From Bacteroidetes bacterium HGW-Bacteroidetes-4 (lineage in GTDB: Bacteria; Bacteroidota; Bacteroidia; Bacteroidales; SZUA-534), in contig PHDD01000011.1 in NCBI GenBank assembly GCA_002840905.1, forward strand, positions 1 to 64,000: DNA of 64,000 nt, in the 5' to 3' direction. The notes below the pieces were generated by a model. The model saw only the letters and a list, made by a program, of their open reading frames with translations, searched no databases and was not told where the DNA came from. Below are positions 5,839-42,457 of this stretch, piece by piece; position 1 is the stretch's first letter; the number at the start of each line of letters is the position of its first letter. Position numbers and translations under genes: made by a program.

Positions 5839-6321
5839 ATGGTAAAAAAACAGTTCCGCATTTTTACATTACGTTTCTTGTTATTTTCGCTTTTATTTGC
5901 GGCTTTTCAACTTAGTCCAAACCATTCTATTGCCCAATGTGGCATGGCGCTTAAAGACGTGGTGGTAAAAGAAATTGGCAATGCTACCTATTTAAAAGAT
6001 TTCAGGGTACGCCTCGAAGAAGGTAAAAACCCAAACAAACCCCCAGCGCAGGAATTTTCTATTTTGCTCAATAAAGGCACCCATTACCGATTCAACATTA
6101 AAGCCGATTCCACCACAACCGACCAGGTAATATTAAAACTTTACGATTTTCAGCGATTTTACGGCAGCAACTACGATCAATCGGATGGGACATCGTATGA
6201 GTTTTTCGACTTTTTTTGTGCCAAAACCCAGGTCTATTATTTATCCATTTCGTTTGCCACAGCCCAAGCCGGGTGTGCTGCTGCCATAGTTTCGTTTGTT
6301 GAAAATTATGATGCCAATTAA
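5839..6321 (+). CDS. Small secreted protein, paralog of the 30.9-kb protein
   Basis: The 160-residue protein has a signal peptide (hydrophobic stretch at about residues 12-25, ending SIAQ), so it is exported. No known domain is recognised. It shares a clear pattern with the 142-residue protein at 30875-31303: a cysteine after the signal, IGNATYLKD, 'LNKGT.Y', a cysteine before KT..YYLS.SF, and a final Ala-rich 'AAIVSF'. The 208-residue protein at 16938-17564 may be a more distant relative. Unlike those two it has no partner lipoprotein beside it. It lies 64 bases after prfB. The cysteines could form disulfides. Function unknown. Confidence 0.7.
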   Translation: MVKKQFRIFTLRFLLFSLLFAAFQLSPNHSIAQCGMALKDVVVKEIGNATYLKDFRVRLEEGKNPNKPPAQEFSILLNKGTHYRFNIKADSTTTDQVILKLYDFQRFYGSNYDQSDGTSYEFFDFFCAKTQVYYLSISFATAQAGCAAAIVSFVENYDAN

Positions 6322-27029: not shown

Positions 27030-30000
27030 ATGAACAGCAATTTAGGACAAAAGTCGGCGCCTGAAGATATTTACAAACGCCTTTTTCAAGAATCGCCTAT
27101 CCCTTATGGAATAATATCGTGGGAAGAGAAACACAACAAATTGCAGTTCAGTGTTACAGAAGCAAACCCCTCGATGCTTCAATTTTTAGATTTAAGCGTT
27201 CGTGATTTGCCAAAAAGCACTCCCGAAGCATTCAGCCTGTTTAAAGGCTATAACAATCAATTTCTTGAAGTTTTTTTAAAGAACCGGGAACAATCGCAGG
27301 TTCAAATCACTTATCAAAACAGACAGAAAAACTTCAGATTAACTTTTTCCAAATTAAGCGTTGAACAAATTGCATTTTATTCCGAAGACCTTACCGAACT
27401 TCATCAGAAACGCACCGAATTACTAGAGCTAAAACGACAACTGAAAGAATCGCACGATTTGGCACAACTGGGTTATTGGATCGAAAATCACAAAACAAAT
27501 GAGCACTTTTGGTCCGACCTTATTTTCAAATTACTTCAAATAAGTAATCAACCCATAAACCCTTCGTTTAAAAACTACCTTGAATATATTCACCCCAGCG
27601 ATCGAACACAGGTTGAAGCATTGTATAATGAAGCCAAAGACACCAATACCGGATTTGAAATAAACCATCGCATCAAATTAAGTGACAATACCATAAAATA
27701 TGTGTCGCTGCGATGCTATACCAATTATAATTCGAAAGGCGATGCCTCACAAACGGTGGGAATTATTCAGGACATTACCCACATTGAACACACCCAACAG
27801 GCCCTAAAAAAAAGCGAAACAATTTTTCGTTCGGTTTTCGAAAATGCACCCATTGCCATTGTTCTTGTAAATAAAAATTACAGCCCAAATTTTTGCAACA
27901 TGCAGTTTAGCCAAATTACCGGCTATACCATGGACGAAATTTTACAAAAAGAACTCAAGGATTTTACGTATCCTCCCGATTATAAAAACAATCAGCAACA
28001 GTATTTGCGTCTTTTCAATGGCGAAATTGATTCATTCTCACTTACCAAACGCTACCGAAAAAAAGACAGCAGCCTTATTTGGGTTAAAGTAGTTGTATCG
28101 GCCATTAAAAACGAGCATAACATTACCACTATGGCAATTGCCATGGTTCAGGATATATCGGCTGAAAAAAAGGCCTCCGAAGCACTTATTAAAAGTGAAT
28201 ACAAGTACCGAACCCTTATTGAAAATGCCAACGATGGAATTGGACTTTTCGACCTCAAATTCAATCCCATAATTTACAATACACGTTTGTACGAAATGCT
28301 GGGCTACCCGCTCGAAGAATACCTGAAAATTGATCACACCCAGTTTGAATTGTTTCACCCGGCCGATGTTAAAAAAGCACAAAAAGCTTACGAAACGGTA
28401 CTTAACAAACAGCAGGCGCGAATTGAATGCCGCTTAAGGAATTTCGAGGGTCAGTATTTCTATTGTTCCATCAGCTATATTCCGGTTTTACACGAAGATA
28501 AACCGGCCATGCTTATTTTCAGGCGCGATATTTCGAAACGAAAAGCAGCCGAATTGCAGAACGAGGAATACCGTTTGTTCCTGGAAACCATAATGGACAA
28601 TTTACCCGTTTCGTTTTTTGCAAAAACAACTCCCGATTTCAGGTACCTTTACTGGAATCATACTATTGAACAGGTTACCGGAATTTCGGCCGAAGAAGCT
28701 ATTGGTAAAACCGATATGGAAATTCAACAGTCGAAAACATTAGCAGAACAATACCTGCACGAAGACACCAAACTGCTGAAAAACAAAAGAAAATTGGAAA
28801 TGGAACATGAGTTTACCAATCCGCTGGGCGAGGTAAAACATTTTAAAACCATAAAAACCATTCACAATTCAACGGCAGGCAATCCAATAATTTTGGGTTT
28901 ATCGATGGATGTTACCCAGCTAAAAGATGCCGAACGAAAAATTGAACAATCGACCCAAATGCTAAAAGAAGCTCAAAAAATTGCAAAACTTGGCTATTGG
29001 GAATACGATGTAAAAAAAGATCTTTTTTTCGATAACATCGAGAACAGGCAAATTTTGGGTATTGTTGATGTTCCCTTTTTTTTAAACTACAAACAGTTTA
29101 TTGAACTGGTACATTCAACCGACCAGGATATTGTTAATAAAGCATTTAAAAAAGGTATTTCAAAAAAAACAGCGGGCGAAGGCATTGTAAAAATTACCTC
29201 AGGAAGCAACATTAAACACATTTCAATTAACTACCGCCCCATTACCAATGAAAAAAATGAGGTGATTAAATTACGGGGAACCTGTCTTGACATTACCCGG
29301 ATTCGACAATCGGAAATTGCGCTTCGCGAAAGCGAAAACCGTCTGAAACAAGCAGAACACATTGCAAAAGTGGGATATTGGAACTACAATTATATCGACA
29401 AAACCACCCGCTTTTCCGACGAAGTATGGAACATTCTGGAACAACCCCTTAGTAATAAAGATATTCAGTTTGTTGATTTTGTTAACACCGTTCATCCCGA
29501 CGATAAACTACTTGTTTACAAACAATTTAAACAGTCAAAAGAGAATAATCAGCCTTTTGATCTTGAGTTCAGAATTGTTACACAAAATAAAAAATTAAAA
29601 TACATTAAGGCTACTGGAACCTTTGTGAACAACCTGGATGGGTCGTTGGAACGATCGATTGGAACTTTTCAGGATGTAACCGGGTTGAAACAAAATGAAT
29701 TCAAACTTCAAAAAATAACCAGCCATCTGCTTAACATTCAAAAGTTGTCGAAAACCGGTTACATGGAACTTAATCTGGCAACAAAAACAGCAGTATATTC
29801 CAATTCCCTACTGCATATATTGGAGTTACCTGATGAGAATGCGGAATTCAACACCAAACATTATCAGGAGTTTATTCATCCCGACGACAAAAACACTATT
29901 GAACAAACGCTGAAACATTCACTCGATAAAGGAATTTCCCATAATATTCAATACCGATTGAAACTAAAAACCGGAAAAATAAAATATGTAAACGAAATTT

Positions 30001-30818
30001 GCAGCGTTACCCAATTAAACAGCCAGCTTGAAAAAACAGCTACCCGTATTGTTCAAGACATAACACTTTTAAAGGAGCAGGAACTGGAACGCTTACAATT
30101 AATTCAGGTAAAGAAAAATTTACAGGTTGGAAGTTGGGATTACGACGAAAAAAACAGATTGTACCAGTTTAATAATCTGGCCTTATCGATTCTGGGTTTT
30201 GAGCAAACAAACCAACAGACATCATGGGCACAGTATATGCAATGCATCCACCCCAACGACAGGCATTCGGTAAGTACACTTATTGAAAACAGCATTAAAA
30301 ACAAAACAAATTACACCCTGACCTATCGCGTAATTAATCAAAAAACCCATGAAACAAGGTATCTGAAAGATATCAGCAGCTTTATACAATTGAATCCTGA
30401 TTTATGGATTTTGCATGGAACCTTCAGAGATGTAACCGATTACCACAAAACACTAAAAAACCTGACCGAACAAAGCGAATTATTAAAAACAATAACCGAT
30501 AATGCACTCATTGCAATGATAATTTTGCAAAACGACAAGCATATTTACGTAAATAAACGCTGGTGCAGCTTAACAGGTATGAATGCTGAAGATGCTGAAA
30601 ACAAACTCACCATTCACGAAATTTATGAGCCGGAAACTACCCGAATCATTATAAGTTTACTGGTTCAATGGTCAAAATACGGTATAAAAGAATACCATAA
30701 CGAGTTACAGATAAAACCCATACATGCCCCGGCTTTTTATGCTGAAATTTATGTAAAAGAAATATACACCAACAATGCCCCGGCTTTTTTAATTCTGGCA
30801 TCGCCACGACATAAATAA
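27030..30818 (+). CDS. Multi-PAS sensor protein without a visible output domain
   Basis: A 1262-residue soluble protein that appears to be only PAS/PAC modules, about ten: near 10-120, 140-255, 265-385, 392-505, 515-640, 648-765, 772-890, 900-1015, 1030-1145 and 1155-1262. Several have the 'LGYWE.D' (PAS_3) form, e.g. AQLGYWIENHK, KLGYWEYDVK, KVGYWNYNY; others are 'ENAPI.I...' PAS_4/9 type. Most end with 'DIT' or 'DVT' and a short helix. No His-kinase dimerisation helix, HATPase, GGDEF, EAL or SpoIIE motif follows; the last PAS runs to the stop, and a terminator comes immediately after. It may signal by protein contact, or may be a truncated histidine kinase. It faces the SiaB/SiaC operon tail to tail. 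Confidence 0.88.
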   Translation: MNSNLGQKSAPEDIYKRLFQESPIPYGIISWEEKHNKLQFSVTEANPSMLQFLDLSVRDLPKSTPEAFSLFKGYNNQFLEVFLKNREQSQVQITYQNRQKNFRLTFSKLSVEQIAFYSEDLTELHQKRTELLELKRQLKESHDLAQLGYWIENHKTNEHFWSDLIFKLLQISNQPINPSFKNYLEYIHPSDRTQVEALYNEAKDTNTGFEINHRIKLSDNTIKYVSLRCYTNYNSKGDASQTVGIIQDITHIEHTQQALKKSETIFRSVFENAPIAIVLVNKNYSPNFCNMQFSQITGYTMDEILQKELKDFTYPPDYKNNQQQYLRLFNGEIDSFSLTKRYRKKDSSLIWVKVVVSAIKNEHNITTMAIAMVQDISAEKKASEALIKSEYKYRTLIENANDGIGLFDLKFNPIIYNTRLYEMLGYPLEEYLKIDHTQFELFHPADVKKAQKAYETVLNKQQARIECRLRNFEGQYFYCSISYIPVLHEDKPAMLIFRRDISKRKAAELQNEEYRLFLETIMDNLPVSFFAKTTPDFRYLYWNHTIEQVTGISAEEAIGKTDMEIQQSKTLAEQYLHEDTKLLKNKRKLEMEHEFTNPLGEVKHFKTIKTIHNSTAGNPIILGLSMDVTQLKDAERKIEQSTQMLKEAQKIAKLGYWEYDVKKDLFFDNIENRQILGIVDVPFFLNYKQFIELVHSTDQDIVNKAFKKGISKKTAGEGIVKITSGSNIKHISINYRPITNEKNEVIKLRGTCLDITRIRQSEIALRESENRLKQAEHIAKVGYWNYNYIDKTTRFSDEVWNILEQPLSNKDIQFVDFVNTVHPDDKLLVYKQFKQSKENNQPFDLEFRIVTQNKKLKYIKATGTFVNNLDGSLERSIGTFQDVTGLKQNEFKLQKITSHLLNIQKLSKTGYMELNLATKTAVYSNSLLHILELPDENAEFNTKHYQEFIHPDDKNTIEQTLKHSLDKGISHNIQYRLKLKTGKIKYVNEICSVTQLNSQLEKTATRIVQDITLLKEQELERLQLIQVKKNLQVGSWDYDEKNRLYQFNNLALSILGFEQTNQQTSWAQYMQCIHPNDRHSVSTLIENSIKNKTNYTLTYRVINQKTHETRYLKDISSFIQLNPDLWILHGTFRDVTDYHKTLKNLTEQSELLKTITDNALIAMIILQNDKHIYVNKRWCSLTGMNAEDAENKLTIHEIYEPETTRIIISLLVQWSKYGIKEYHNELQIKPIHAPAFYAEIYVKEIYTNNAPAFLILASPRHK

Positions 30819-30851
30819 AAGGAGGAACGTCTTTTTTAGACGCTCCTCCTT
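30819..30851. terminator. Bidirectional terminator between PAS gene and signalling operon
   Basis: A 14-bp stem with one wobble pair: AAGGAGGAACGTCT (30819-30832) against AGACGCTCCTCCTT (30838-30851), loop of about five T. On the minus strand it is followed by TTTTATTTAT, so it should end the long minus operon; it starts at the PAS gene stop and probably serves that gene too. Confidence 0.82.
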
Positions 30852-30874
30852 CAATATAATACTAAGAATACGGA

Positions 30875-31303
30875 TTACATATTTACGTACGACAAAATAG
30901 CTACGGCCGCACCTTCTTTACCATCTTTAAACGACAGGTTAATGCTGTACATTCCTGTCTTCTGACACTGAAAACCAATGGCTGTTACAAAAGTGCCATC
31001 GGGTTTTAGGTTTGTTCCCAACAAGGTTGCATTTTCCATTAACTGAACCACTGCTTCACCGGCATAACCTTCGGCATTACAAACGGTAATTTTGTACATG
31101 GTACCTTTGTTCATAATCACATTAAACTTGGCCGATGGTGGAGAAACACTACTGGCCGAGAGTTTTACCTTATAATCTTTCAGATAGGTGGCATTTCCAA
31201 TTCCCAATGCACAAACATTAACCAATTCGTCGCTTTGAGCAACGGCCTGATTTACTTGAAAACCAATAAAAAGGGCGAGTATAATTTTAATAATATGCTT
31301 CAT
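30875..31303 (-). CDS. Small secreted protein, second gene of the lipoprotein/secreted-protein pair (copy B)
   Basis: A 142-residue exported protein with a signal peptide (about 1-22, ending AVAQ). It shares 'IGNATYLKD', 'MNKGT.Y', a cysteine before 'KT..Y...LSF' and a final 'AVAILSYV' with the protein at 5839-6321, so the two are paralogs. It starts 1 base after the stop of the paralogous lipoprotein gene at 31305-32228, repeating the arrangement at 16938-18410. It is the last gene of the apparent ten-gene operon, just before the terminator. Function unknown; two conserved cysteines may form a disulfide. Confidence 0.75.
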   Translation of the reverse strand: MKHIIKIILALFIGFQVNQAVAQSDELVNVCALGIGNATYLKDYKVKLSASSVSPPSAKFNVIMNKGTMYKITVCNAEGYAGEAVVQLMENATLLGTNLKPDGTFVTAIGFQCQKTGMYSINLSFKDGKEGAAVAILSYVNM

Positions 31304-31304
31304 C

Positions 31305-32228
31305 TTATAAACTAATTATATTGTTACGAACATCTTCAATTACCGTAATTATATTGGCCAGGGTTTCATCTGAAATATCGATATGTTGTTTATCGTTCTG
31401 AACAATTATTAACATACCATCAACTTCTTTAGCCTCGGGTTCACCCATTTCGTAGGTAATTCGCACTCCGTCGTAAGCTTTTTTTATTCGTTCAATTTCT
31501 TTTACCAAATCGGCAAAATTAGCATCCGATTTATAATTTTTTAAGATTAAGATCAAGTCGTTCAAAACCAGCTTCTGGTCGGCTATCCGTTCTACAACTT
31601 CTTTTTCAGGAGCACCTTTAGCCACCTGAGTAGCCAGGTACATACCTTCGACCCACATGCCGGTTACTATTAAGGAACTTATGTTTCCACGATTCGCTTG
31701 CCGCAGGTATTCATCCATATTATTAAAACTCGATACAGAAATATACATCAGCGAATCAAGGTTCTCGTTGTTTGTGGCTAAGCGTTTAATGGTATTGAAA
31801 TCGAAGAATTGACCAATTCGTAATTCGTTTGCCAGCGACTTAATGGCTGTCATGTTATTTATTACCGAACCGGTTTTTTCATACATATTCAGATAACCCA
31901 GGTCGCAACCATATACGCCAAGATTTAATGCTTGCTTAAAGTTGGTGTTTAATTTATCAATCCGGTTGGTTGATGCCAATAACTTTTGCGAAAAAGGCAC
32001 TCCGGTTGATTTTAACAAGGCTGCCATTTCAACAGGCGACGATATGTTATCAATAATATCTTCCATGGCTTCCTGTGAAATCAACAAAGGCTTATCATCG
32101 CCAAAAATTTCTTCCGGGATTTCAATATCATCGGAAATTTTTTTATTGCTATTGCCCGAACAGGCCGATAAAAACAAAGCTGCTGATGCAAAACCAATAA
32201 AAACCAAATTATACCATCTTCTCCTCAT
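31305..32228 (-). CDS. Lipoprotein, paralog of the 17.6-kb lipoprotein (copy B)
   Basis: A 307-residue lipoprotein, lipobox 'LSAC' with Cys23. The mature protein is helical and acidic. It matches the 280-residue lipoprotein at 17568-18410 through 'SPVEMAALL', 'ALNLGVYGCDLGYLNMY', 'NLDSLMYIS', 'GMWVEGMYLA' and 'VERIADQKLVLNDLI'. About 40 extra residues, 'ITYEMGEPEAKEVDGMLIIV...', lie near the C terminus. It is located in a signalling/export operon directly after the ABC-transporter fusion, so it may be that transporter's envelope partner; this is inference from position. A near -7 sequence (TACTTTTA) upstream may give an extra internal promoter. Confidence 0.82.
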   Translation of the reverse strand: MRRRWYNLVFIGFASAALFLSACSGNSNKKISDDIEIPEEIFGDDKPLLISQEAMEDIIDNISSPVEMAALLKSTGVPFSQKLLASTNRIDKLNTNFKQALNLGVYGCDLGYLNMYEKTGSVINNMTAIKSLANELRIGQFFDFNTIKRLATNNENLDSLMYISVSSFNNMDEYLRQANRGNISSLIVTGMWVEGMYLATQVAKGAPEKEVVERIADQKLVLNDLILILKNYKSDANFADLVKEIERIKKAYDGVRITYEMGEPEAKEVDGMLIIVQNDKQHIDISDETLANIITVIEDVRNNIISL

Positions 32229-32292
32229 GAGTATTATTTTTATTTATAAAAGTAAGCCTTTTTTCTAAAATTTAAAATATTCTTGCATTCAA

Positions 32293-35200
32293 CTATTTTT
32301 GGAACAAATCCATAAATCGTTTCAACCAATCGTAGTATAGCGCCACATAGGCTCCAATAGTCATAACCCAAACCATCCACATATTAAACCAAAAAGTGTC
32401 GATATTGCGTCCGGCAAAATGTTTAACCGGCGAATAAAACTGTGCCCTAAAGTCAAATGGGTTATCAATCCACGGCATTTCATAAATGGGATCGGTTTGC
32501 TGAATTAAACGATCTTTGTATGCAATAATTTTATTCTTCTCATAAATTTTCCGGACAATGTCAGTAACTGCTTCGTTATGGTAGGCCTGACGCTTAGCAA
32601 TATAATAGCCGGGATGTTTACTGTCGAGGTAGTTTATAATCCGTTCTTTTCGATCGTTGGCATTGGTAAACGATTGGTTATAAAACTGCTCTAATTCATT
32701 CAGGTATTCTGAAGTAGCCAAACCCACTTCGTTGTTAAATTTCTCGAGAGTTAGGTAATCGACGTATTCAAATGGCACCTCAGGAACCCTGGCTGTTTCT
32801 TTGTAAATCTCGTTTTTAAGCAAGGCCAAGCGCTCCGATACTTCTTCCTTTATGGAATCGTTATTGGTGTTATAAGCCGATAAACAATAATCAATCCGGT
32901 CTTTTAATTCGGGAATGTAATAAACATTTTTAAAGTCCGCCATATAAGCCTGGCGTTCAATTTCGTAGAAATCTTTCTGGAATTTATTGTCTTTGTACTG
33001 ACGTACCATCAATCCCTCATAAACCCAGCGGGTGGCCATCAGTTCACAAACCGGAGGAACTCCTTCAACACTACCAATGGCCCGGTTTAATTTGTCGAAA
33101 CTAAACATGGCACCACCCAATGCCATTTGAGGAATCATAACCAGCGGAATCATTATATAGATGGTTACTGCTGAATTGAAAGCGGATGAAAGATTAAGTC
33201 CCAATAAATTGGAAAAAGTGGCGATAGTAAACAAGGCCCACCAATATTCAAACCAAAGTCCCCGTATGTCGAGAATCAGGTTACCTACCAAAACATACAA
33301 CAAGGCCTGTATGGCAGACAGAATAAATAATATAGTAATTTTCGAAATCAGATAACTCGATCGGCTAAGATTAAGAAAAGATTCCCTTTTCAGAATTTTG
33401 CGGTCTTTAAAAATCTCTTCGCCCGAAACCATTAAACCCAGAAACATGGCCACAATCATGCTCATAAAAATATAAACTGCGATGTTTTCGTTTTCGCGGA
33501 AAATATAAATTTTAGAGTTTGGATCGGCAATGTAGCGGATAAGAAAACTTAAAATAAAGCCAAGTAAAGGAGCTTCAAGAATATTCAACAAAATGTATTG
33601 CCGGTTGCTGATTTTTGCCAGCGAATCGCGTTTAAAATAAATGCCCATTTGCCTGAACCAACTGGGAATATTTAACGATTTTGGGGGTTCTTCCTGAATA
33701 TCGGGGTGTTTTTCAAGTACGTGGTTTACCTTATACTTTTCTTCCCATTCGGTTGGATTAACTTTCCGCTTGTTGGTGTAGCGCCCAAATTCATCAACTA
33801 CCTGGGCGTCGATAATATTAAATATAAGTTCCGGATTCACATTACCACAGGTTGGGCATTCGCCCACTTCGCTGTTAATCTGTGCATCGAGTTTTTTAAA
33901 GTAAGTTACGGCCTCAACCGGATTACCATAATAAATCTGATACCCGCCGGTATCGAGAATTATCATTTTGTCGAACATTTTATAAATTTCCGACGAGGGC
34001 TGATGAATTACCACAAAAATGAGTTTTCCTTTCATCGAAAGCTCCCGCAACAAGTCCATTACGTTCTCTGAGTCGCGTGACGATAAACCGGAAGTAGGTT
34101 CATCAACAAAAAGAATGGGCGGTTCGCGGATAAGTTCTAAGGCAATATTAAGCCGTTTTCGCTGGCCTCCGCTGATGGTTTTATTAAGCGGTGAGCCCAC
34201 TCTGAGGTCTTTTCGGTCGATAAGCCCCAAGCTGGTAAGCGTGTTTTCAACGCGAGCGTGTAATTCTTCATCCGACATGTCTTTAAAGCACAGGCGTGCA
34301 TTAAAAAAAAGGTTCTGAAACACGGTAAGCTCTTCAATCAAAAGGTCGTCTTGAGGAATATATCCAATAACGCCTTCCATTTTTTCGTTTTCGGTGTGCA
34401 GATTAATACCATTTATTAAAACCTCACCTTGCGACGGGGCCTCAATTCCGGTAAGTACGTTCAACAAAGTTGTTTTTCCGGCACCACTGGCCCCCATTAT
34501 TCCAACCAGGCGACCTTGCTCTTCAGAAAGGTTAATGTCGCGCAAGCCAATAGAACCATTTTTAAACCGGTATTCTACATTGGTTACGTTGTACGAAACG
34601 CGCGAAGAGGTTGCATCGGCCATGTATTTTGATGCCACATCGCTGTAATAAACCGGTTTTCCTTTGGGAAAGCGGATGCTACTGCCGTTGGCAAAAAGAT
34701 AAATCCGGTTTGAGCGAACCGGAAGCCCGTTTAACAGCACATCTTGTTTTCCTGTGTAGCGTAAAAAGTAAAGTTCAACACTTTTTATGTGCAGAATAAT
34801 GAGTTCTTTGTCGAGTTCTGCGCTTTGAATGTGCTTGGCAAATTCAAAAGAGGGCTTTTTATCATTAATTATTAAAACGCTGTTAATATCGAGTTCTTTG
34901 TTGCCATCGTTAACAACAAAAGTCTCGGTACTTTTAAATTCTTCGGGAGAGATGTTAAAAACCTCGGCAACGGTATTGATTATGGCCATCCGCTGTTCGG
35001 AAAATTTTTTGTCGGCTGCAACCAGTTCAAACAAACGAACCAGTACTACCACTTTTTGTTCCTGGGTAAGTGTTTTATTAATTTTTTTACAGATACCCAG
35101 AATCCTTACCGAATCTTTAACGGAAGTAAGTTGAATTTTTTCGTCTTCTTTTTTTTCTTTATTCTCTTCTCTGCTAACAATATCGGCATGTTTATAAAAC

Positions 35201-35349
35201 AAGGTCAGGTATTCTTCAACAAAGTCGGAACTTAATTGAGAAGTCAAAAAACTTTCAACAAAATCAATTTCATTGTCTTCAACGCCACCATCCTGCTTTG
35301 CAATAATTGCAAAAAGCTGCATCAGGGCTTTTAAGATCTCTTCACTCAT
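32293..35349 (-). CDS. TerB-like/FHA-like/ABCG-type ABC transporter fusion
   Basis: A 1018-residue fusion. Residues about 1-140 are a helical TerB-like domain; 150-240 form a beta-rich FHA-like part ('VLLNGLPVRSNRIYLFANGSSIRF'-type strands, split here for length); 255-480 an ABC ATPase with Walker A GASGAGKTT (286-294), signature SGGQRKRL (393-400) and Walker B 'ILFVDEPTSGL' (412-422); a CPTC pair at 498-501; then an ABC2-type membrane domain (several helices between about 595 and 780, and one near the C terminus). ATPase before membrane part is the ABCG (White) order. A large soluble insert (about 790-970) separates the last helix. The FHA-like part suggests phospho-dependent control by the kinase/phosphatase genes just upstream. 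Substrate unknown. Confidence 0.88.
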   Translation of the reverse strand: MSEEILKALMQLFAIIAKQDGGVEDNEIDFVESFLTSQLSSDFVEEYLTLFYKHADIVSREENKEKKEDEKIQLTSVKDSVRILGICKKINKTLTQEQKVVVLVRLFELVAADKKFSEQRMAIINTVAEVFNISPEEFKSTETFVVNDGNKELDINSVLIINDKKPSFEFAKHIQSAELDKELIILHIKSVELYFLRYTGKQDVLLNGLPVRSNRIYLFANGSSIRFPKGKPVYYSDVASKYMADATSSRVSYNVTNVEYRFKNGSIGLRDINLSEEQGRLVGIMGASGAGKTTLLNVLTGIEAPSQGEVLINGINLHTENEKMEGVIGYIPQDDLLIEELTVFQNLFFNARLCFKDMSDEELHARVENTLTSLGLIDRKDLRVGSPLNKTISGGQRKRLNIALELIREPPILFVDEPTSGLSSRDSENVMDLLRELSMKGKLIFVVIHQPSSEIYKMFDKMIILDTGGYQIYYGNPVEAVTYFKKLDAQINSEVGECPTCGNVNPELIFNIIDAQVVDEFGRYTNKRKVNPTEWEEKYKVNHVLEKHPDIQEEPPKSLNIPSWFRQMGIYFKRDSLAKISNRQYILLNILEAPLLGFILSFLIRYIADPNSKIYIFRENENIAVYIFMSMIVAMFLGLMVSGEEIFKDRKILKRESFLNLSRSSYLISKITILFILSAIQALLYVLVGNLILDIRGLWFEYWWALFTIATFSNLLGLNLSSAFNSAVTIYIMIPLVMIPQMALGGAMFSFDKLNRAIGSVEGVPPVCELMATRWVYEGLMVRQYKDNKFQKDFYEIERQAYMADFKNVYYIPELKDRIDYCLSAYNTNNDSIKEEVSERLALLKNEIYKETARVPEVPFEYVDYLTLEKFNNEVGLATSEYLNELEQFYNQSFTNANDRKERIINYLDSKHPGYYIAKRQAYHNEAVTDIVRKIYEKNKIIAYKDRLIQQTDPIYEMPWIDNPFDFRAQFYSPVKHFAGRNIDTFWFNMWMVWVMTIGAYVALYYDWLKRFMDLFQK

Positions 35350-35386
35350 CCTTGAGGATTAAATTTTTAATTAGCGGATTAAATAA

Positions 35387-35770
35387 TTAATCCATAGAAT
35401 AGCTTATTTGTTCAAATGGAACTTCAACGATATCAGCATATTCCTCGCCGGCTTCCTCCATATCTTCGTCATCTTCGGGGAAATGCCAACGCACCAATAC
35501 CTCTTTTCCGCCTTCATACATTTCTTCCAGCTTGAGTAAAATATCTAAAAGCATTTTTGAAGAGGCTGTGTTGAAATAAACCAATTTAAAATTAAACACG
35601 GTTTTACCGGTGGCTTCTTCGGAATATTTGTCTAACCAATCAAGTATGGGTTCGTAAAAAGCAGCCACATCTTCGGGCAATGAGCGACCCGAAATCTCAA
35701 AAATTTCATTCGCTACATCCAGTGTAACACTGGGAGTATCATCGGTTCCAACTATTTTTATCACTTCCAT
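35387..35770 (-). CDS. SiaC-like regulatory phosphoprotein (DUF1987)
   Basis: A 127-residue protein of the SiaC/DUF1987 family. In Pseudomonas aeruginosa, SiaC is phosphorylated by SiaB and dephosphorylated by SiaA, and in the unphosphorylated state activates the diguanylate cyclase SiaD. The start 'GTDDTPSVTLDVANEIFEISGRSLPED' region and 'LVYFNTASSKMLLDIL' are typical. The predicted phosphosite, Thr68 in NTASS, has the same number as the site reported for P. aeruginosa SiaC, as I recall. No GGDEF gene is nearby, so the downstream target must differ; the ABC fusion gene follows after 37 bases. The upstream SiaB-like gene ends 12 bases before. Confidence 0.88.
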   Translation of the reverse strand: MEVIKIVGTDDTPSVTLDVANEIFEISGRSLPEDVAAFYEPILDWLDKYSEEATGKTVFNFKLVYFNTASSKMLLDILLKLEEMYEGGKEVLVRWHFPEDDEDMEEAGEEYADIVEVPFEQISYSMD

Positions 35771-35782
35771 AGTTCATTGTTA

Positions 35783-36367
35783 TTAATTATTATATCTAGA
35801 AATTACACTTGTAAGCACAAAAAAAGAAAACTCTTCGTTAATAGGCAAAAAACTGTAATAAAGTTTATTTCCGGTTTTTTTTGCAATGTCGATAAAACCC
35901 AGTCCGGCTCCACCTTTACTCGATAAACGCCCCTCTTTAATTTGTTGTTTATAGAGTTGTTTCAGGCCTTCTTTGTCAAGGCTGTTAATTTTATCAATCA
36001 TTTCAGTCATATCGGGGATATGCGATTTGCTTAAAATATTCCCCGTAGTAATGGTATATTCCTCATCATTTTTACAAAGCATAAAGGTTCCCCGACCTTC
36101 TTTTCGGCCACCATCACAGTCAATACACTCGGCATGTTTGCCGACATTTTGCAGGCATTCAACCATAACATGGAATACCTTTTTCTGAGTTGATTGCGAT
36201 TCCTCGTCAACCTCCATATTATTCTCCGTCAACGACGTAAATGCTTTTGTTATCTGGTGTGTTATTTCGCCTTCATAAACCAATTGCACTTTGTGCTCTT
36301 TCATCGACTTATAAAAGCCATAAACAAACTCCAGGAAAATTTTTAATTCGGCACCGTTCCCGTCCAT
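35783..36367 (-). CDS. SiaB-like serine/threonine kinase (HATPase fold)
   Basis: A 194-residue kinase of the SiaB/DUF6272 group, a GHKL-type anti-sigma-kinase relative. The ATP site shows the N box 'VECLQNVGKHAE' (Asn74) and a G box 'GGAGLGFIDIAKK' (about 152-164). Its expected role is to phosphorylate the SiaC-like protein encoded 12 bases downstream, opposing the SpoIIE phosphatase encoded 18 bases upstream. An insert with CIDCDGG (about 81-87) contains two cysteines of unknown significance. The gene order phosphatase-kinase-phosphoprotein is the same as siaA-siaB-siaC. Confidence 0.87.
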   Translation of the reverse strand: MDGNGAELKIFLEFVYGFYKSMKEHKVQLVYEGEITHQITKAFTSLTENNMEVDEESQSTQKKVFHVMVECLQNVGKHAECIDCDGGRKEGRGTFMLCKNDEEYTITTGNILSKSHIPDMTEMIDKINSLDKEGLKQLYKQQIKEGRLSSKGGAGLGFIDIAKKTGNKLYYSFLPINEEFSFFVLTSVISRYNN

Positions 36368-36385
36368 AATTGCCTGTTTTTTATA

Positions 36386-39010
36386 TTAAAATTCAATTCC
36401 TATTAACAACACATCATCAATTTGCTTGTTCTCGCCTTTCCATGCTTCAAAATCGGATGCAAAATACGAATTAAAAAAGCCAATTTCCTGATCGGCATGC
36501 TCAGTAATTGCTTCCCGTATTCGGATGGCTTGGTATTTTCGTCTGTCAGGCCCGCCAACCTGGTCGGGTAATCCGTCGGAAAAGAAAAATACTTTATCGC
36601 CAATTTCCAAATTTATTACATGATTTTCAAATTCTTTTTCCGGTTTTTTCCCTAAGGGGATGCCTCCAATTGCTTTTCGGTTGCCTTTAAACTCTTGTAA
36701 TGCTCCGTTTCGCAACAAATAAAGTGGTCTGTGGGCACCTGCATATTGTAACAAATTAGTTGTCAAATTGATTTTACAAAGTGCAATATCCATTCCATCG
36801 CGTGCATCAGTGTCAATTCTGTCCTGTTTCAGGGTTTTTCGCACGCCATCGTGCAACTTGTCGAGGATTTGACCTGCATTGATGTCATCGTAGTGATCGA
36901 CCACGTTGTTTAGTATAAAGTAGCCGATAAACGAAAGCAACGCTCCCGGAACTCCGTGGCCGGTACAATCGACAGCGGCAATAAAAATGTCATCGCCTTT
37001 TTTAAAGAACCAGGGAAAATCGCCACTAACTACATCGCGTGGTTTATAAAACAAAAACGATTTGGGCAAAAATTCCTGAATGTATTTATTGTTTGGAAGT
37101 ATTGAAGTCTGGATACGCTGAGCGTAATTTATACTTTCTTCAACCGCCCGGTTCTTTTCTTTAATTTCTTGCTCAATTTTCTTTTGTTCGGTAATGTCGT
37201 GAGCTACAAATAAAATGGTTTCAAGTTCTTTGTCATCGCTGAATTCAGGAATTGCATTTACCCGCATAATACGATCGCCAAAATTGGTCGGGAAAGTATT
37301 TTCAGTATTGGTTTTTTGCCGCGACGATTTTACTTTTTGAATGGCCTCAGTAAAAAACGATTTAATTTGCTTGTTGAAATTAACATCGCTTAAGTTGCGT
37401 TTAATGATGTCGTTATTATCGACACCGGTAAATATTTTTACTATTGGGTTGGCATAAAAGAACTGGCCGGTTGGGCTCAGACGAAGAATCATATCGGGTG
37501 AGTTCTCGGAGAGCGATTGCATTTTACTTTTCATCCGTTCTTCTTTTTCGGCCCGCTTACGCTCGGTGATATCCTGCGAATTGATAATTATTCCTTCAAT
37601 CGCCGGATCGTCAATCAGGTTACGCCCGGTAGATTCAATAAAAATCTTTTGCCCGTCTTTACGCATGTAAGTGTACTGAATTGACCGCGATTCACCGGGA
37701 TTCTCGACCAGACTGACAAACAAATCGGTAAATTCTTTTACTCCTTTTGCTGTCAGGCGATCCATGTCTTTGCCTTCCATCATTTCTTCAACGGTATAGC
37801 CATAAATACTGTTCACCGAAGGGCTGATGTATTTTAATTTCATGTCTTCGTCGTAAATGGAAATAATTTCCGACGCATTTTCAAGTAAGGAATGCAGGCG
37901 CTTTTGAGCGTTTTCTACCTCACCAATTTGTGTTTCAAGATTTGCATTGGTTTTTTCAAGTTCTTCGTGAGTAGCCCGCATTTCTTCGGCATTTTGACGC
38001 AATTCTTCTTCGTTTTCCTGAAGTTCGTTGGTCATTTCCTGAGCATCTTTCAGCAGTTTTTCGGTACGGGCATTGACTTTCAGGTTAAAAATGGTACGGG
38101 CAATAATATCGCTTAATTCTTCTAAAAACCGGATCGAAAGTTCATCAATATCTTTATCGATTGAGGCAAATTCCATCACGCCCTGAAGTTTGTCGTCGGT
38201 AATAAGCGGAACCAGTAAAAGTGAGGTGGGTTTTTTGTCACCTAAAATACCGGACGAAATGGTTACGTATTCTTCGGGTATCTCGCGGCGGAAAATAGTT
38301 GCCATTTCAAATGCACATTGGCCAACAAGTCCTTGTCCAACTAAAAATTCCTGATTGAGAAACTTTTGTCGGTTATAGGCAAAAGTAGCGGTATTCACCA
38401 GTTTGTTTTCTTCTTCAACAAAAAGATAAAAAGCTCCCTGAAGTACGTTTATGTACTTAATGAGCTCAACCAGTGTTTTATACGACAGTTCTTCCAGGTC
38501 GTTATGCATGCGAAGAATGTCTGAAACCAGATCTTTTCCTTTGGCTATCCAATTTTGCTGACGTTCGTTCTCGTTGGTGCGTGCTAAATTCTCACGCATA
38601 ATCATCAGTGAATGGCCTAAGATGTCATTTTCATCAATGGTGTCTTCGTATGCGGTAAGATCACCCTCACCAATTTTTTTGGCCAGGCGGGCATTTCGGT
38701 TAATTATGGTATCTTTTTCTTCAATAACCCTGTTTAATCCTGAGGTTGTTTCCCGGTAATTCAAGGTGAGAATATAACCTAAAGCACCTAAAATTAATGG
38801 GGCAAAATCGACAACAAAATAAACAGGTGAATTGAGGTGCATTTGCCACAACCCGTAAAAGGAAACCTCAAAGTTGGTTGCTAAAAAACCAATAATCCAA
38901 GTAAATACGGGAAACATAAACCCAAGAATTAGGAATCCGGGAGTATAGGTAACCTTGTCTCTAAACCTGAATACGAGTAACTCTGCTATTTTTTGTAATA
39001 TATAGGTCAT
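36386..39010 (-). CDS. SiaA-like membrane SpoIIE phosphatase with HAMP, GAF and PAS domains
   Basis: An 874-residue sensor phosphatase. Two transmembrane segments (about 25-45 and 62-84) lead into a HAMP-like linker (about 88-145), a GAF domain (about 165-320), an acidic coiled coil (about 325-368), two PAS domains (about 370-490 and 500-620) and a SpoIIE/PP2C phosphatase (about 655-874). Phosphatase motifs: 'DVVSGDFPWFF', 'VDCTGHGVPGALLS', 'FFSDGLPDQVGG' and 'QIDDVLLIGI'; the metal-binding aspartates are kept. Its expected substrate is the phosphorylated SiaC-like protein. SiaA itself has HAMP plus PP2C, so the GAF and PAS parts are additions. The SiaB-like gene follows after 18 bases. Confidence 0.9.
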   Translation of the reverse strand: MTYILQKIAELLVFRFRDKVTYTPGFLILGFMFPVFTWIIGFLATNFEVSFYGLWQMHLNSPVYFVVDFAPLILGALGYILTLNYRETTSGLNRVIEEKDTIINRNARLAKKIGEGDLTAYEDTIDENDILGHSLMIMRENLARTNENERQQNWIAKGKDLVSDILRMHNDLEELSYKTLVELIKYINVLQGAFYLFVEEENKLVNTATFAYNRQKFLNQEFLVGQGLVGQCAFEMATIFRREIPEEYVTISSGILGDKKPTSLLLVPLITDDKLQGVMEFASIDKDIDELSIRFLEELSDIIARTIFNLKVNARTEKLLKDAQEMTNELQENEEELRQNAEEMRATHEELEKTNANLETQIGEVENAQKRLHSLLENASEIISIYDEDMKLKYISPSVNSIYGYTVEEMMEGKDMDRLTAKGVKEFTDLFVSLVENPGESRSIQYTYMRKDGQKIFIESTGRNLIDDPAIEGIIINSQDITERKRAEKEERMKSKMQSLSENSPDMILRLSPTGQFFYANPIVKIFTGVDNNDIIKRNLSDVNFNKQIKSFFTEAIQKVKSSRQKTNTENTFPTNFGDRIMRVNAIPEFSDDKELETILFVAHDITEQKKIEQEIKEKNRAVEESINYAQRIQTSILPNNKYIQEFLPKSFLFYKPRDVVSGDFPWFFKKGDDIFIAAVDCTGHGVPGALLSFIGYFILNNVVDHYDDINAGQILDKLHDGVRKTLKQDRIDTDARDGMDIALCKINLTTNLLQYAGAHRPLYLLRNGALQEFKGNRKAIGGIPLGKKPEKEFENHVINLEIGDKVFFFSDGLPDQVGGPDRRKYQAIRIREAITEHADQEIGFFNSYFASDFEAWKGENKQIDDVLLIGIEF

Positions 39011-39027
39011 TTATACTAAATTTCAAG

Positions 39028-39795
39028 TTATACTAACTTTTTTGCCTTGCTTCCAAAGAATTTGGATAAATCGTTAACCCGGTTCGATAATCCCCGCTCA
39101 ATCGATTTAAACGTTGCCAGTTCAACCACCCCAATTACTTTATTGGCATCAATTACCGGAATTATGGCCAGATAACTGGGTTTATGGCTTCCAAGACCTG
39201 AAACTACTTTAACATACCCTGCCGGCAACTCATCAATAAACATGGCTTTTTTATCTTTTACTACCTGACCAATTAATCCGTCGCCTTCTTCAAACTCGGG
39301 AGGCATTTTATCGGAATAATAGGCATAGCTGGCAATGGACGCATATTTTTTTGTAGCATCGTTTAACAAATAAACCATTCCTACTACAATCTCAATTTGT
39401 TTGCTGATACCAACCAATAAACGTTCGCCAAAGGTGGCCAGGTCGTTGAATTGCCCCATTTCTTCCTCAAGGCGGGTTAAATTAAATGAGAGTTCGTCAG
39501 CTTCGCGTGCTTTTTCTTCCACTTCTTTCTCCAGTTCTTCAATATCGTCTCCACTTGCCACACGCCGCCGTTCTTCATTTTCGAGGTAATGATTAATGGC
39601 TCTTAATCCACCAAGTCCCAGGTTTAAAATTAATGGTATTTGAACCAGGAACATACCCAGCAGAATAATGGCTGCTCCATTACCTTTAAAGGCCGACGAT
39701 GAGGCTAAAACCAACAATACAGCAAGTATACTGGCTATGAGCAATAAGACAAAGTTTCTGATGACCCGTTTTTTGTATTTTAGTATCTCGTCCAT
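39028..39795 (-). CDS. Membrane-anchored GAF-domain protein
   Basis: A 255-residue protein with two N-terminal transmembrane helices (about 11-33 and 40-62), a strongly charged coiled coil (about 70-115, 'EELEKEVEEKAREADELSFN') and a C-terminal GAF domain (about 120-250). It has no output domain. The GAF part resembles that of the neighbouring phosphatase: 'GDGLIGQVV...ELPAGYVKVVSGLGSHKPS' here against 'GQGLVGQCA...EIPEEYVTISSGILGDKKPT' there. One GAF domain was probably copied from the other, and the two proteins could form a membrane complex through their coiled coils. It lies 17 bases upstream of the phosphatase gene. Confidence 0.82.
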   Translation of the reverse strand: MDEILKYKKRVIRNFVLLLIASILAVLLVLASSSAFKGNGAAIILLGMFLVQIPLILNLGLGGLRAINHYLENEERRRVASGDDIEELEKEVEEKAREADELSFNLTRLEEEMGQFNDLATFGERLLVGISKQIEIVVGMVYLLNDATKKYASIASYAYYSDKMPPEFEEGDGLIGQVVKDKKAMFIDELPAGYVKVVSGLGSHKPSYLAIIPVIDANKVIGVVELATFKSIERGLSNRVNDLSKFFGSKAKKLV

Positions 39796-39801
39796 AGGTT
39801 C

Positions 39802-40362
39802 TTATGCTAAACTTAACAGAAAATTAATAATTTTATTCGTACTAAAAACATGATCAACATTGGTAGCATTCATCGATGCCAAAGTCATGGTCGGAACCTG
39901 GCATTCGTTGGGATCCTGCACAATGGTTAATCCCCCGTTATCTTTAACGCTTTTCAATCCCAGTGCCCCATCTTTATTGGCCCCGCTCAGAATTATTCCC
40001 ACCAGTTTCCGCTTGTAATTATACGAAGCTGAAAAGAACGACAAGTCGATAGACGGCCTGCTGTGATTTACCGCATCTTCGGTTGAAAGTGAAAAACGAT
40101 TCCCCAATTCAACGTACAGATGATAATTTGCCGGAGCCAGATAAATTTTACCTGATTTTATAGGCTCTTTGTCGTTGGGCTCAACAATGGGCATTTGTGC
40201 TTTTATTGAAAGCGCTTCAACAAAACCTGAACGGACATGCTTTAAACGATGCAAACAAAGAATTACAGGCAAAGGGTAATTGGCGGGTAATGACGAAACA
40301 ATTTTTGTCACTACCTGAAAGCTACCCGCTGAACCTCCTATTATTACTGCCTTATAATCCAT
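39802..40362 (-). CDS. CheB-type methylesterase without receiver domain
   Basis: A 186-residue protein that is only the catalytic domain of CheB, which demethylates or deamidates glutamates of chemoreceptors. The triad is kept: Ser11 in 'IGGSAGS', His38 in 'LCLHRLKH' and Asp131 in 'LSGANKDGALG', with spacing close to that of E. coli CheB (164, 190, 286). The usual N-terminal receiver is absent, so CheA-type phosphorylation cannot control it directly. No CheA, CheW or receptor gene is in the window; substrates are unknown. It lies 2 bases after the degenerate CheR gene and 6 before the GAF gene. Confidence 0.88.
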   Translation of the reverse strand: MDYKAVIIGGSAGSFQVVTKIVSSLPANYPLPVILCLHRLKHVRSGFVEALSIKAQMPIVEPNDKEPIKSGKIYLAPANYHLYVELGNRFSLSTEDAVNHSRPSIDLSFFSASYNYKRKLVGIILSGANKDGALGLKSVKDNGGLTIVQDPNECQVPTMTLASMNATNVDHVFSTNKIINFLLSLA

Positions 40363-40364
40363 AA

Positions 40365-41192
40365 TTAATCGACTCTTTTCCTATAAATACGCTCATCCTG
40401 ATTAACTAACTGCATTTTTTTTCCCACCTCAGAATACTCAAGACTCTCCATGTTACCAAGAATCAGGTGTCCACCTACGGTTAAGTTACTCATCAGTTTA
40501 CGGGTGACTTTTTCGTACAACGGTAAATTGTACTGAATCATCATATTCCGAAAGATAATCATCCGGTACGATTTATTGCTCTCAACCTGAGAAATATTTA
40601 ACGTATCAAATTCAACTCCTGTTAATAACGATGTATCTAATACAGCTTTATTATCGACAATTTTATAATAACTTGAAAACTCAAACTTGCCCGACAAGCG
40701 GGTATAATTGGCCTCGCCAATTTCCATCTTTTTTAAATCGTATAAACCGCCGGCTTTAATTTTTGCTATACGATTTTTTGACGGACACGAAACCAATATT
40801 TTAATGGAATTGCTTAAACCCAATTCCGACAATACTACCATTAATGAAAAAATTTCTTCACCCGATGATTCTCCGGCAAGCCAGATTTTAGCTCCGGTTG
40901 AATGACTTAGTTCGGGCAAATATTTTTCTTTCATCTCACGCCAAAACGAAGGATCACGGAACAATTCGGTGTTTTCAATCATAAGTTGTTCAAGCAACTC
41001 CTCATAGTCAATATTATTCCGCTTTACCTGATTTACAAATTCATCGACAAGCACTATGTTAAAGTACGACAAAATATACAAAAAACGGTGGCGCAATGTG
41101 GTCAGGTTATAGTCGCTCAGATCGAGGCCATAACTCTCTTGAATGGCTGCAATCATTTTTTTTGTATCAACTATACCTAAACTATCTATCAT
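40365..41192 (-). CDS. Degenerate CheR-like protein
   Basis: A 275-residue protein with the CheR layout: an N-terminal helical domain, 'NTELFRDPSFW' (about 74-84, very like the neighbour's TTELFRDP) and a Rossmann-like part. The SAM-binding residues have changed: the GCSSGQE loop reads LAGESSGEE (105-113), the acidic SAM-ribose residue of 'DIN' is replaced by SCPSKN (135-140), and the 'FCRNVIIYF' block reads 'FRNMMIQYN'. It is probably unable to methylate and may bind CheR substrates or partners instead. It lies 17 bases after the intact cheR gene, from which it may have been duplicated. The reading frame is intact, so it is not a pseudogene. Confidence 0.82.
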   Translation of the reverse strand: MIDSLGIVDTKKMIAAIQESYGLDLSDYNLTTLRHRFLYILSYFNIVLVDEFVNQVKRNNIDYEELLEQLMIENTELFRDPSFWREMKEKYLPELSHSTGAKIWLAGESSGEEIFSLMVVLSELGLSNSIKILVSCPSKNRIAKIKAGGLYDLKKMEIGEANYTRLSGKFEFSSYYKIVDNKAVLDTSLLTGVEFDTLNISQVESNKSYRMIIFRNMMIQYNLPLYEKVTRKLMSNLTVGGHLILGNMESLEYSEVGKKMQLVNQDERIYRKRVD

Positions 41193-41209
41193 AAAGCTAA
41201 GCTAAAGGG

Positions 41210-42052
41210 TTAAAATTGTTTTTTCCGGTAAAAACCTTTGGTGCGTTCAAAATTATTGGCAACCGGGCCTAATATACTTTCGTGTGCACCAAGAATCAGG
41301 TAGCCTTCGCGATACAGACTATTACTAAACAATTCAATAACCGAATTTTGCAATTTATTGTTGAAATAAATTATCACATTCCGGCAAAATATAATATCGA
41401 ATTTTGAATAAAAAATGTTCCCGTCCTTAACCAAATCGTGTTTGCGAAAAACGGCTTTCTCCCGTAAAAACTGCTTCATGGTTATGGTATCTTTTACTTT
41501 ATCGATATCGAAATATTTCTCATAATCGACATGTTTTACATCTTCGTAATTTAAGGGATTTTCTTTGATTACCTTGTCAAAATTATCGAGGTACCCCAAA
41601 TTAAAGCGATACTTATAGGTTCCTTTTTTAGCAACCTCGAGCATATCGGAATTAATATCACTGGCAAAAACTTTGGCTTGTTCAAACATGCCCAGTTCAT
41701 TGAGCAAAATAAGCATCGAATAAATTTCCTGCCCGCTACTGCATCCGGCATGCCAGATAAAAATCGATTTGTTTTTTTTTAGTTTGGGAAGAATCTGATA
41801 CCGAAGGGTAGACCACATTTCTGGGTCACGGAATAATTCGGTTGTATTAACGGTTATATCTTTAACAACTTTTTCAAGAAAATCTTTATCCTTGGCAACC
41901 TTTAACGACAATTGGTTAATATCCATATGATTGTCAACCAAAAGTTTTTCTACCCTTCTTTTAAACGACCTGTCGGAATAGTCGTTAAAATCATAAGTAG
42001 ATGCCATTTTGATTGCTGTAATAAATCGTTGGACATCTTCATTTGTTACCAT
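41210..42052 (-). CDS. CheR-type protein-glutamate O-methyltransferase
   Basis: A 280-residue methyltransferase of the CheR family. Motifs in order: 'NTTELFRDPEMW' (69-80), SAM loop 'HAGCSSGQEIYS' (101-112), 'ASDINSDML' with acidic Asp132, and 'DIIFCRNVIIYF' (about 224-235). All expected residues are present, so it should be active. It would methylate glutamates of a chemoreceptor or another coiled-coil protein; no receptor gene is in the window, and the coiled coils of the GAF and phosphatase proteins of the same operon are possible targets (speculation). It is the first gene of the operon, with a -7 box at 42146-42139. Confidence 0.92.
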   Translation of the reverse strand: MVTNEDVQRFITAIKMASTYDFNDYSDRSFKRRVEKLLVDNHMDINQLSLKVAKDKDFLEKVVKDITVNTTELFRDPEMWSTLRYQILPKLKKNKSIFIWHAGCSSGQEIYSMLILLNELGMFEQAKVFASDINSDMLEVAKKGTYKYRFNLGYLDNFDKVIKENPLNYEDVKHVDYEKYFDIDKVKDTITMKQFLREKAVFRKHDLVKDGNIFYSKFDIIFCRNVIIYFNNKLQNSVIELFSNSLYREGYLILGAHESILGPVANNFERTKGFYRKKQF

Positions 42053-42457
42053 ACAGTACCTGTCGTTTATAAGTTGCAGCAGATTTGATTTTCAGCAGTG
42101 GTAAAAATAATAATTTTTATTTAATAATATATTTTAAGCAAAATTATATTCACCGCCTTCATTAGAAACAACAAAGCGTTGCCAAGTAATGAACAGTTGC
42201 TAAAGTACTACTTTTAATCCTATTTAGAAAGCCTGAAAACATACTTTGACGTAAAGCCAAAAAATCATGATTAATAACCCCTTCTTGGATTTTAAATCCA
42301 CTGGAATTATAAAGTGCATTCCCTCCTCATAACAAATGGATTTATAATTCGGGTTTCTGCACAAATAGCAAGTGAAATAAAACCCTGCAATAATTGTTTG
42401 CAAAATTCGTCCGGCATGAACAATTCAGCGGTTTATAGCCAATTATATAATTTTCTT
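42053..42457. other. 405-base gene-free region upstream of the signalling operon
   Basis: No coding frame of note is seen on either strand. It holds the -7 box of the cheR operon at 42139-42146, with a TTG 22 bases further upstream on the minus strand (42171-42169). The rest, between 42180 and 42457, is A+T-rich and contains nothing I recognise. Confidence 0.5.
42139..42146 (-). promoter_or_regulatory. Promoter of the ten-gene signalling operon
   Basis: Minus strand reads TAATTTTG, an exact TAnnTTTG match. A TTG at 42171-42169 lies 22 bases upstream, within the usual spacing for a -33 element. A start about 6 bases downstream gives an 80-base leader before the cheR ATG at 42052. Confidence 0.55.

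Follow-up and report, generated by a model that had tools for sequence, protein, structure and literature searches.

What does a phosphoswitch of the SiaA/SiaB/SiaC type regulate where the diguanylate cyclase SiaD is missing, and why should it be encoded together with CheR and CheB, which are usually read as chemotaxis genes? Both questions are raised by a ten-gene operon in a stretch of 64,000 nucleotides (the window) that is part of the 4.3 Mb draft genome, rated 100% complete, of Bacteroidetes bacterium HGW-Bacteroidetes-4 (assembly GCA_002840905.1, contig PHDD01000011.1, positions 1 to 64,000). The operon joins CheR- and CheB-like enzymes and SiaA-, SiaB- and SiaC-like proteins to an ABCG-type transporter, a lipoprotein and a small secreted protein, and this ten-gene unit is strongly conserved, more than expected by chance. 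We propose, with our confidence evenly balanced, that it is a post-translational switch gating an envelope exporter, with a chemotaxis-style adaptation layer.

Organization of the operon

The ten genes run along the minus strand from 42052 to 30875 in the order (5′ to 3′) cheR1, cheR2, cheB, gaf, siaA, siaB, siaC, abc, lipoprotein and secreted protein, with intergenic gaps of 1-64 bases (17, 2, 6, 17, 18, 12, 37, 64 and 1 bases at the nine junctions from cheR1 to the secreted protein). Domains were assigned by Pfam and NCBIfam scans of the ten proteins, and the features are as follows (SAM, S-adenosylmethionine).

42053-42457, minus strand: upstream intergenic region, presumed promoter (from the sequence)
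41210-42052, minus strand: cheR1, CheR-type methyltransferase with SAM-site residues kept (PF01739, 139.8 bits)
40365-41192, minus strand: cheR2, divergent CheR, predicted inactive pseudo-methyltransferase (PF01739, 64.3 bits)
39802-40362, minus strand: cheB, receiver-less CheB methylesterase (PF01339, 162.6 bits)
39028-39795, minus strand: gaf, GAF protein whose N-terminus is hydrophobic and probably a membrane anchor (PF13185, 39.7 bits)
36386-39010, minus strand: siaA-like sensor phosphatase with hydrophobic N-terminus, GAF, Glu-Glu coiled coil, two PAS and SpoIIE/PP2C domains (Pfam and NCBIfam)
37961-38008, minus strand: SiaA coil segment, residues 335-350, predicted methylation region (Glu-Glu pairs 335/336, 342/343 and 349/350)
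35783-36367, minus strand: siaB-like protein kinase, DUF6272 (NF038262)
35387-35770, minus strand: siaC-like phosphoprotein, Thr68 in YFNTASSK (PF09345, 142 bits; matches solved DUF1987/SiaC chains)
32293-35349, minus strand: abc, TerB plus beta-rich region plus ABCG-type half-transporter (Pfam, structure model, fold matches)
31305-32228, minus strand: lipoprotein, lipobox Cys23 (alignment of 39, structure model)
30875-31303, minus strand: small secreted protein (alignment of 36)
30818-30852, minus strand: intrinsic terminator, 15-pair stem and T-rich tail, directly after the last gene and abutting the convergent gene 27030-30818

A preliminary description of this DNA, made from its letters alone, had given the ten genes the same place, strand and 1-64 base gaps, and the open reading frame (ORF) coordinates agree with it. 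Its reading of a CheR, a degenerate CheR and a receiver-less CheB ahead of the sia genes is upheld by the Pfam domains and the SAM-site residues, and its reading of adjacent SiaA-, SiaB- and SiaC-like genes with SiaD missing by the family matches and by the lack of a Pfam GGDEF match among the ten proteins. Of the one terminator and one promoter that it had seen, the terminator stands, with its stem at 30852-30818, whereas the promoter is not discernible by a sigma-70 scan, which returned 46 sites against 35.8 expected.

Conservation of the unit in Bacteroidales

Relatives from named genomes were found by two N-terminal transporter peptide patterns, and the best 80 of 395 confirmed were taken. 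Together with the window these gave 81 loci, of which 57 with at least 8 kb before and at least 2 kb after the transporter were counted, and 24 with short flanks were dropped. The loci were picked by similarity to the operon-type transporter, and what they show holds for this type rather than for the transporter family at large; L187 is without a transporter ORF. Loci with G handles overlap with the named loci, some coming from the same genome, and the two sets of counts are not additive.

Among the 57 loci, window included, the lipoprotein gene is present in all 57, siaB, siaC and the secreted-protein gene in 56 each, siaA in 51, and cheR1, cheR2, cheB and gaf in 48 each. siaC lies directly ahead of abc in 56/57, the window's order among labelled genes is found in 25/57, and an additional sensor gene (X) stands between cheR1 and cheR2 in 18/57. 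Across loci, the nine junctions of the window have median gaps of 2.5-56 bases. In the locus counted without siaB and siaC (L284), the block is split by a called ORF of 71 residues on the opposite strand, beyond which both genes are present, and the true count for the two is probably 57/57; the locus without a labelled secreted protein (L234) has an unlabelled 140-residue ORF at that place. The genes that the preliminary description had grouped are kept together across Bacteroidales rather than scattered in relatives.

Many families of the order repeat this gene arrangement, and three genomes from a family related only at class level have cheR-cheB-gaf-siaA-siaB-siaC-abc-lipo-sec. Among named loci, similarity is highest to Salinivirgaceae/Marinilabiliales and other Bacteroidales metagenome-assembled genomes (MAGs). 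The carriers are Bacteroidales from the environment and the rumen, with Perlabentimonas and Breznakibacter represented by named strains. A shorter form, siaB-siaC-abc-lipo-sec, is all that is seen in one MAG and in three loci of Carboxylicivirga, and several abc-lipo-sec cassettes in the class have no adjoining sia or che genes. Members matching the transporter N-terminal profile, paralogues outside the unit included, occur in 189/393 genomes of the order and 163/295 of the class. The che genes likewise occur apart from the exporter: among 17 further CheB stretches from carriers, which include chemotaxis loci and lone cheB genes, cheR1-cheR2-cheB-gaf form a separate mini-operon in nine, and cheR1-cheR2-cheB stand without a called gaf in two more. 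Since the quartet stays together outside the operon, the unit can be seen as a che quartet joined to a sia-exporter sextet.

A SiaABC switch without SiaD

In Pseudomonas aeruginosa, SiaC is phosphorylated on Thr68 by SiaB and dephosphorylated there by SiaA, and phosphorylation blocks the binding and activation of SiaD (PMC7278518). The same Thr68 phosphoswitch is described in two other papers (PMC7647112, PMC8457831), one of which gives LYLNTSSIK as the Thr68 peptide (PMC7647112). Thr68 of the window's SiaC aligns on the Thr of this peptide in solved P. aeruginosa SiaC chains. After length filters, which were also applied before the SiaA coil comparison below, Thr68 is kept in 77/77 operon SiaCs and 101/101 linked SiaCs; among 32 unlinked SiaCs, the position holds Thr in 23 and Ser in 9. 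Six residues checked in SiaB are invariant in 77/77, and the conserved Asp residues of the SiaA PP2C domain are kept in 65/65; both sets are catalytic residues of their families. SiaB passes the cut-off of its kinase family (NF038262, 171.5 bits against 85), and all three proteins miss the NCBIfam cut-offs for P. aeruginosa equivalogs (SiaA 163.7 of 700 bits, SiaB 90.6 of 225, SiaC 88.1 of 150). A GGDEF match is absent in 21 of the 22 carriers searched, the window's genome included, and present in one. With SiaD missing and GGDEF absent from nearly all of these carriers, the switch needs another output.

The window's genome contains 13 SiaC-family genes yet no GGDEF match. Of the 12 that lie outside the operon, 3 have siaB as a neighbour, and SiaC may have many partners in this genome.

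The transporter as candidate output

The abc product (1018 residues) begins with TerB and a beta-rich region that has no domain assignment, followed by the ATPase and then the ABC-2 membrane domain. Its structure model (mean predicted local distance difference test score, pLDDT, 79.6; below 50 at 206-209 and 220-247) has its best Foldseek matches in ABCG5/G8 (E 3.8e-25, probability 1.00), ABCG2 and ABCG1. With an ATPase that precedes the ABC-2 domain and an ABCG fold in the model, the protein belongs to the ABCG transporter class, scoring 265.6 bits against TIGR00955, below the 736 cut-off of that family. This kinship suggests that the exported substrate is probably a lipid or another hydrophobic envelope molecule. 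A long, mostly helical stretch between membrane helices (residues 772-984) would be periplasmic.

Transporters linked to siaC (41 sequences) and unlinked ones (27 sequences) were compared at equal ATPase divergence, with the best-80 loci left out. In pairs with 60-65% ATPase identity (84 linked vs 112 unlinked), sequence identity in helix 74-100 is 74% for linked transporters vs 38% for unlinked ones; it is 50% vs 39% in TerB 1-60, 47% vs 30% in TerB 101-146, 39% vs 32% in the beta region and 60% vs 58% in the membrane part, and the putative periplasmic part is alike in the two (29% vs 30%). The extra constraint in SiaC-linked transporters falls on the TerB domain, and most on helix 74-100. 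This pattern, together with siaC standing directly before abc in nearly every locus, speaks against an account in which SiaABC and the exporter are co-expressed for a common envelope task and SiaC acts on some other partner, for example a histidine kinase or an anti-sigma factor. We consider that account unlikely, while granting that the 12 further SiaC copies in the genome have varied neighbours, so that the partner of SiaC need not be the next gene, and that class-level abc-lipo-sec cassettes occur in stretches without adjoining sia genes.

The preliminary description had called the ABC fusion FHA-like. Region 158-219 is predicted to be beta-rich and gives a non-significant profile match (E 0.15) to a MEK1 kinase chain, in a part that we take to be its FHA domain. 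The FHA signature consists of Gly-Arg and Ser-x-x-His, and neither element is visible in the transporter alignment. With no Pfam FHA match in the window protein (E <= 0.1) or in ten relatives (E <= 1), the FHA label finds no support. That the exporter reads the SiaC phosphothreonine through an FHA domain is very improbable and was rejected for want of support in the sequence; constraint on the beta-rich region is also lower than on the TerB helix. A precedent for such reading exists in Rv1747 with Rv2623, where FHA I of Rv1747 binds a phosphothreonine protein (PMC5549992).

The last two proteins of the operon have no Pfam or NCBIfam family match at E <= 0.1. Lipobox Cys23 is invariant in the lipoprotein alignment of 39, and the lipoprotein model has a pLDDT of 83; fold assignments from it were too weak to keep (best Foldseek E 1.4; VIA-align Z at most 6.9, with EfeO, EfeM and Algp7 at 4.0-4.4). 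For the secreted protein, a PDB sequence search gave nothing at E <= 1. Both have unlinked paralogues in the window, that of the lipoprotein at 17568-18410 on the minus strand (11 family members in the genome) and that of the secreted protein at 5839-6321 on the plus strand (144.8 bits to its profile).

CheR, CheB and the coil of SiaA

The SAM-site Asp is present in 54/54 aligned CheR1 sequences and in 0/57 aligned CheR2 sequences, window included in both, and CheR2 is predicted to be a catalytically dead pseudo-methyltransferase. CheB retains Ser11, His38 and Asp131 in 56/56. In eight stretches a single CheR was called beside cheB, with motif I intact in six (L067-L069, L184, L207, L209) and degenerate in two (L194, and L197, where the contig ends); a ninth stretch (L189) has both kinds.

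No MCP (methyl-accepting chemotaxis protein), CheA or CheW is found among the ten operon proteins; the genome-wide search in carriers covered MCP and CheW. An MCP match is lacking in 19 of the 55 genomes searched. Of these 19, 13 carry cheB within or next to a locus with siaB and siaC, and all 13 are without a CheW match. These 13 genomes bear on the possibility that CheR1 and CheB methylate ordinary MCPs encoded elsewhere and are merely housed in the operon. The window's own genome could accommodate that explanation, as it has 9 matches to MCP and 3 to CheW, and outside the operon a second CheB of greater length (open frame of 368 amino acids). We nevertheless hold it to be distinctly improbable: cheB is kept at the sia locus in genomes free of MCP and CheW matches, the second CheB sits elsewhere in the genome, and the che quartet is intact even outside the operon (nine of the 17 stretches above).

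The operon itself offers a candidate target. Classical methylation sites of MCPs follow the consensus Glx-Glx-x-x-Ala-Ser/Thr, and the coil of SiaA between GAF and PAS contains a fitting EEMRAT, with Glu pairs at 335/336, 342/343 and 349/350 in seven-residue spacing. The coil resembles the methylation helices of MCPs and is predicted to be a methylation region. A strict motif (342/343 plus 349/350), scored in alignment columns after exclusion of nine of the 49 listed loci that had no SiaA adjoining siaB, is intact in 24/30 SiaAs with cheB in the operon vs 1/10 without (Fisher p 1.5e-4); counted by family, it is intact in 19/24 che-linked vs 1/10 unlinked. Hydrophobic coil positions are conserved in both groups, and 7/11 MCP-free genomes in this table carry the strict motif. 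In a wider set (ORFs of at least 350 residues with the SiaA query as best match), the Glu-pair motif is found in 100/134 SiaA-like PAS/GAF/PP2C proteins at most six genes from che genes vs 4/57 others, in rows that are not independent.

Sensor X has a Glx-Glx-x-x-Ala/Gly-Ser/Thr site in 18/19. Four examples were scanned; they contain GAF, coil and PAS, one of them HAMP too, and no matched output domain (kinase, phosphatase or MCP signalling). One example is the following.

L241:1715-4093: sensor X between cheR1 and cheR2, HAMP-GAF-coil-PAS-PAS with an MCP-like coil

Proposed mechanism

The composition of the unit, its conservation, the intact sites, the loss of the SAM site in CheR2 and the lack of MCP/CheW or GGDEF matches in carriers as counted above are read directly from the sequences; the scheme that we infer from them, in each of its interactions, in the methylation of SiaA, in the direction of regulation and in the substrate, is as follows. 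Signals would reach SiaA, and also X and the GAF protein. SiaA, as a membrane sensor phosphatase, would dephosphorylate SiaC Thr68 and SiaB would rephosphorylate it, and dephosphorylated SiaC would set the activity of the ABCG-type transporter by docking on its cytoplasmic TerB domain, in SiaD's stead. CheR1, helped or scaffolded by the dead CheR2, would methylate the Glu-Glu pairs in the SiaA coil and CheB would demethylate them, and by methylation the SiaA phosphatase would adapt like a chemoreceptor, joined in many relatives by sensor X, whose coil is similar. Transporter, lipoprotein and secreted protein would together be the export output, the latter two as periplasmic or outer-membrane partners.

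Control of the ABC module by the switch, with methylation as a second input, had been suggested in the preliminary description. The first part gains indirect support from the siaC-abc adjacency, the TerB constraint and the lack of GGDEF in 21/22 carriers, with its FHA component given up; the second gains support from the MCP- and CheW-free genomes with cheB at sia loci and from the Glu-pair coil of SiaA. A broader claim, which we put forward tentatively and somewhat short of an even chance, is that a methyl-accepting PP2C phosphatase constitutes a new sensory class, in which CheR, CheB and a dead CheR act on a Ser/Thr phosphatase instead of an MCP-CheA array, with transporter activity as the output, also in bacteria without MCPs and GGDEF proteins.

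Several points weigh against these proposals, whose support comes from comparison of sequences and models. On the side of methylation, the MCP-free G645 and G437 show only a degenerate CheR beside cheB (the G437 contig ends there), 6/30 che-linked SiaAs are without the strict motif, including those of MCP-free G412, G441, G917 and G816, and 1/10 unlinked SiaAs retains it. che linkage changes only about three times on a SiaA tree built without the coil, and two independent pairs on supported branches, with a mean of 1.7 in the expected direction and none opposite, leave significance out of reach. Classical MCP sites are preceded by small residues, to which the SiaA coil corresponds only in part. 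On the side of the transporter, the helix gap narrows at 70-75% ATPase identity (77% linked vs 60% unlinked), and part of the excess conservation may be due to case selection, as linked transporters were found by N-terminal similarity. Convergent siaBC/abc pairs in L055 and L070, considered as a second form of coupling, carry an unlinked-type TerB helix and were discounted for that reason.

Relationship to known systems

The operon shares with SiaABCD of P. aeruginosa a PP2C phosphatase, a SiaB kinase and a SiaC with Thr68, encoded by adjacent genes. It differs in that SiaD is lacking, the next gene encodes an exporter and the genome has no GGDEF match, as well as in the GAF and PAS domains of SiaA, the linked CheR/CheB and the missed equivalog cut-offs.

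What ties the SiaC-abc pair to regulation of ABC transporters by STAS proteins is gene adjacency here. In Escherichia coli the MlaFB complex is built otherwise and is not ABCG, and to our knowledge methylation genes are not part of the Mla system. The likeness lies in a small protein of STAS type, whose phosphosite position is a Thr, beside an ABC ATPase of envelope lipid traffic; as a precedent for such control, MlaB acts on the ATPase MlaF, with Thr52 at the interface, and phosphorylation of MlaB is not demonstrated in the accessible part of that work (PMC7367683). F7 chemosensory clusters, at stage 1, resemble the operon in that a serine phosphatase and anti-sigma factor antagonists are encoded next to their che genes, but they contain cheA, cheW-like genes, cheY, cheD and chemoreceptors, none of which is among the ten genes here, and an exporter such as the operon encodes is absent from the accessible part of their description (PMC7184735). 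Rv1747/PknF of Mycobacterium tuberculosis likewise combines an ABC exporter, an N-terminal regulatory domain and control by Thr phosphorylation (PMC5549992, PMC3908365), with the Ser/Thr kinase PknF and FHA domains there in place of TerB and SiaABC here.

The components are known. The preliminary description had named no described system of this composition, and a literature search, with most subscription papers outside its reach, likewise found none; nor did it find a paper on the TerB-ABCG transporter family, common though its members are in both order and class. Should the phosphatase prove to be methylated, the unit would be a new kind of sensory system. In 13 genomes free of MCP and CheW matches cheB goes with a phosphatase whose coil is MCP-like, and methylation-based adaptation may accordingly be a module of wider use than its usual assignment to chemotaxis implies. 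SiaC, whose known target is one diguanylate cyclase, would gain a probable second kind of target, and the unit provides a defined test case for a STAS-like phosphoprotein gating an ABC transporter. It is present in many free-living relatives of gut Bacteroides, and its apparent union of phosphorylation switch, methylation enzymes and exporter suggests a "chemotaxis memory" that tunes a pump, not a motor.

Other genes in the window

The gene that is convergent with the operon and abuts its terminator (27030-30818, plus strand) has a product of 1262 residues in which Pfam matches only PAS domains, many of them, and an ORF of similar size and orientation is found at the equivalent place in L222, L223, L225 and L227. 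Outside the operon, the window also encodes a TPR-repeat protein with a SpoIIE/PP2C phosphatase domain (9506-12079, plus strand).

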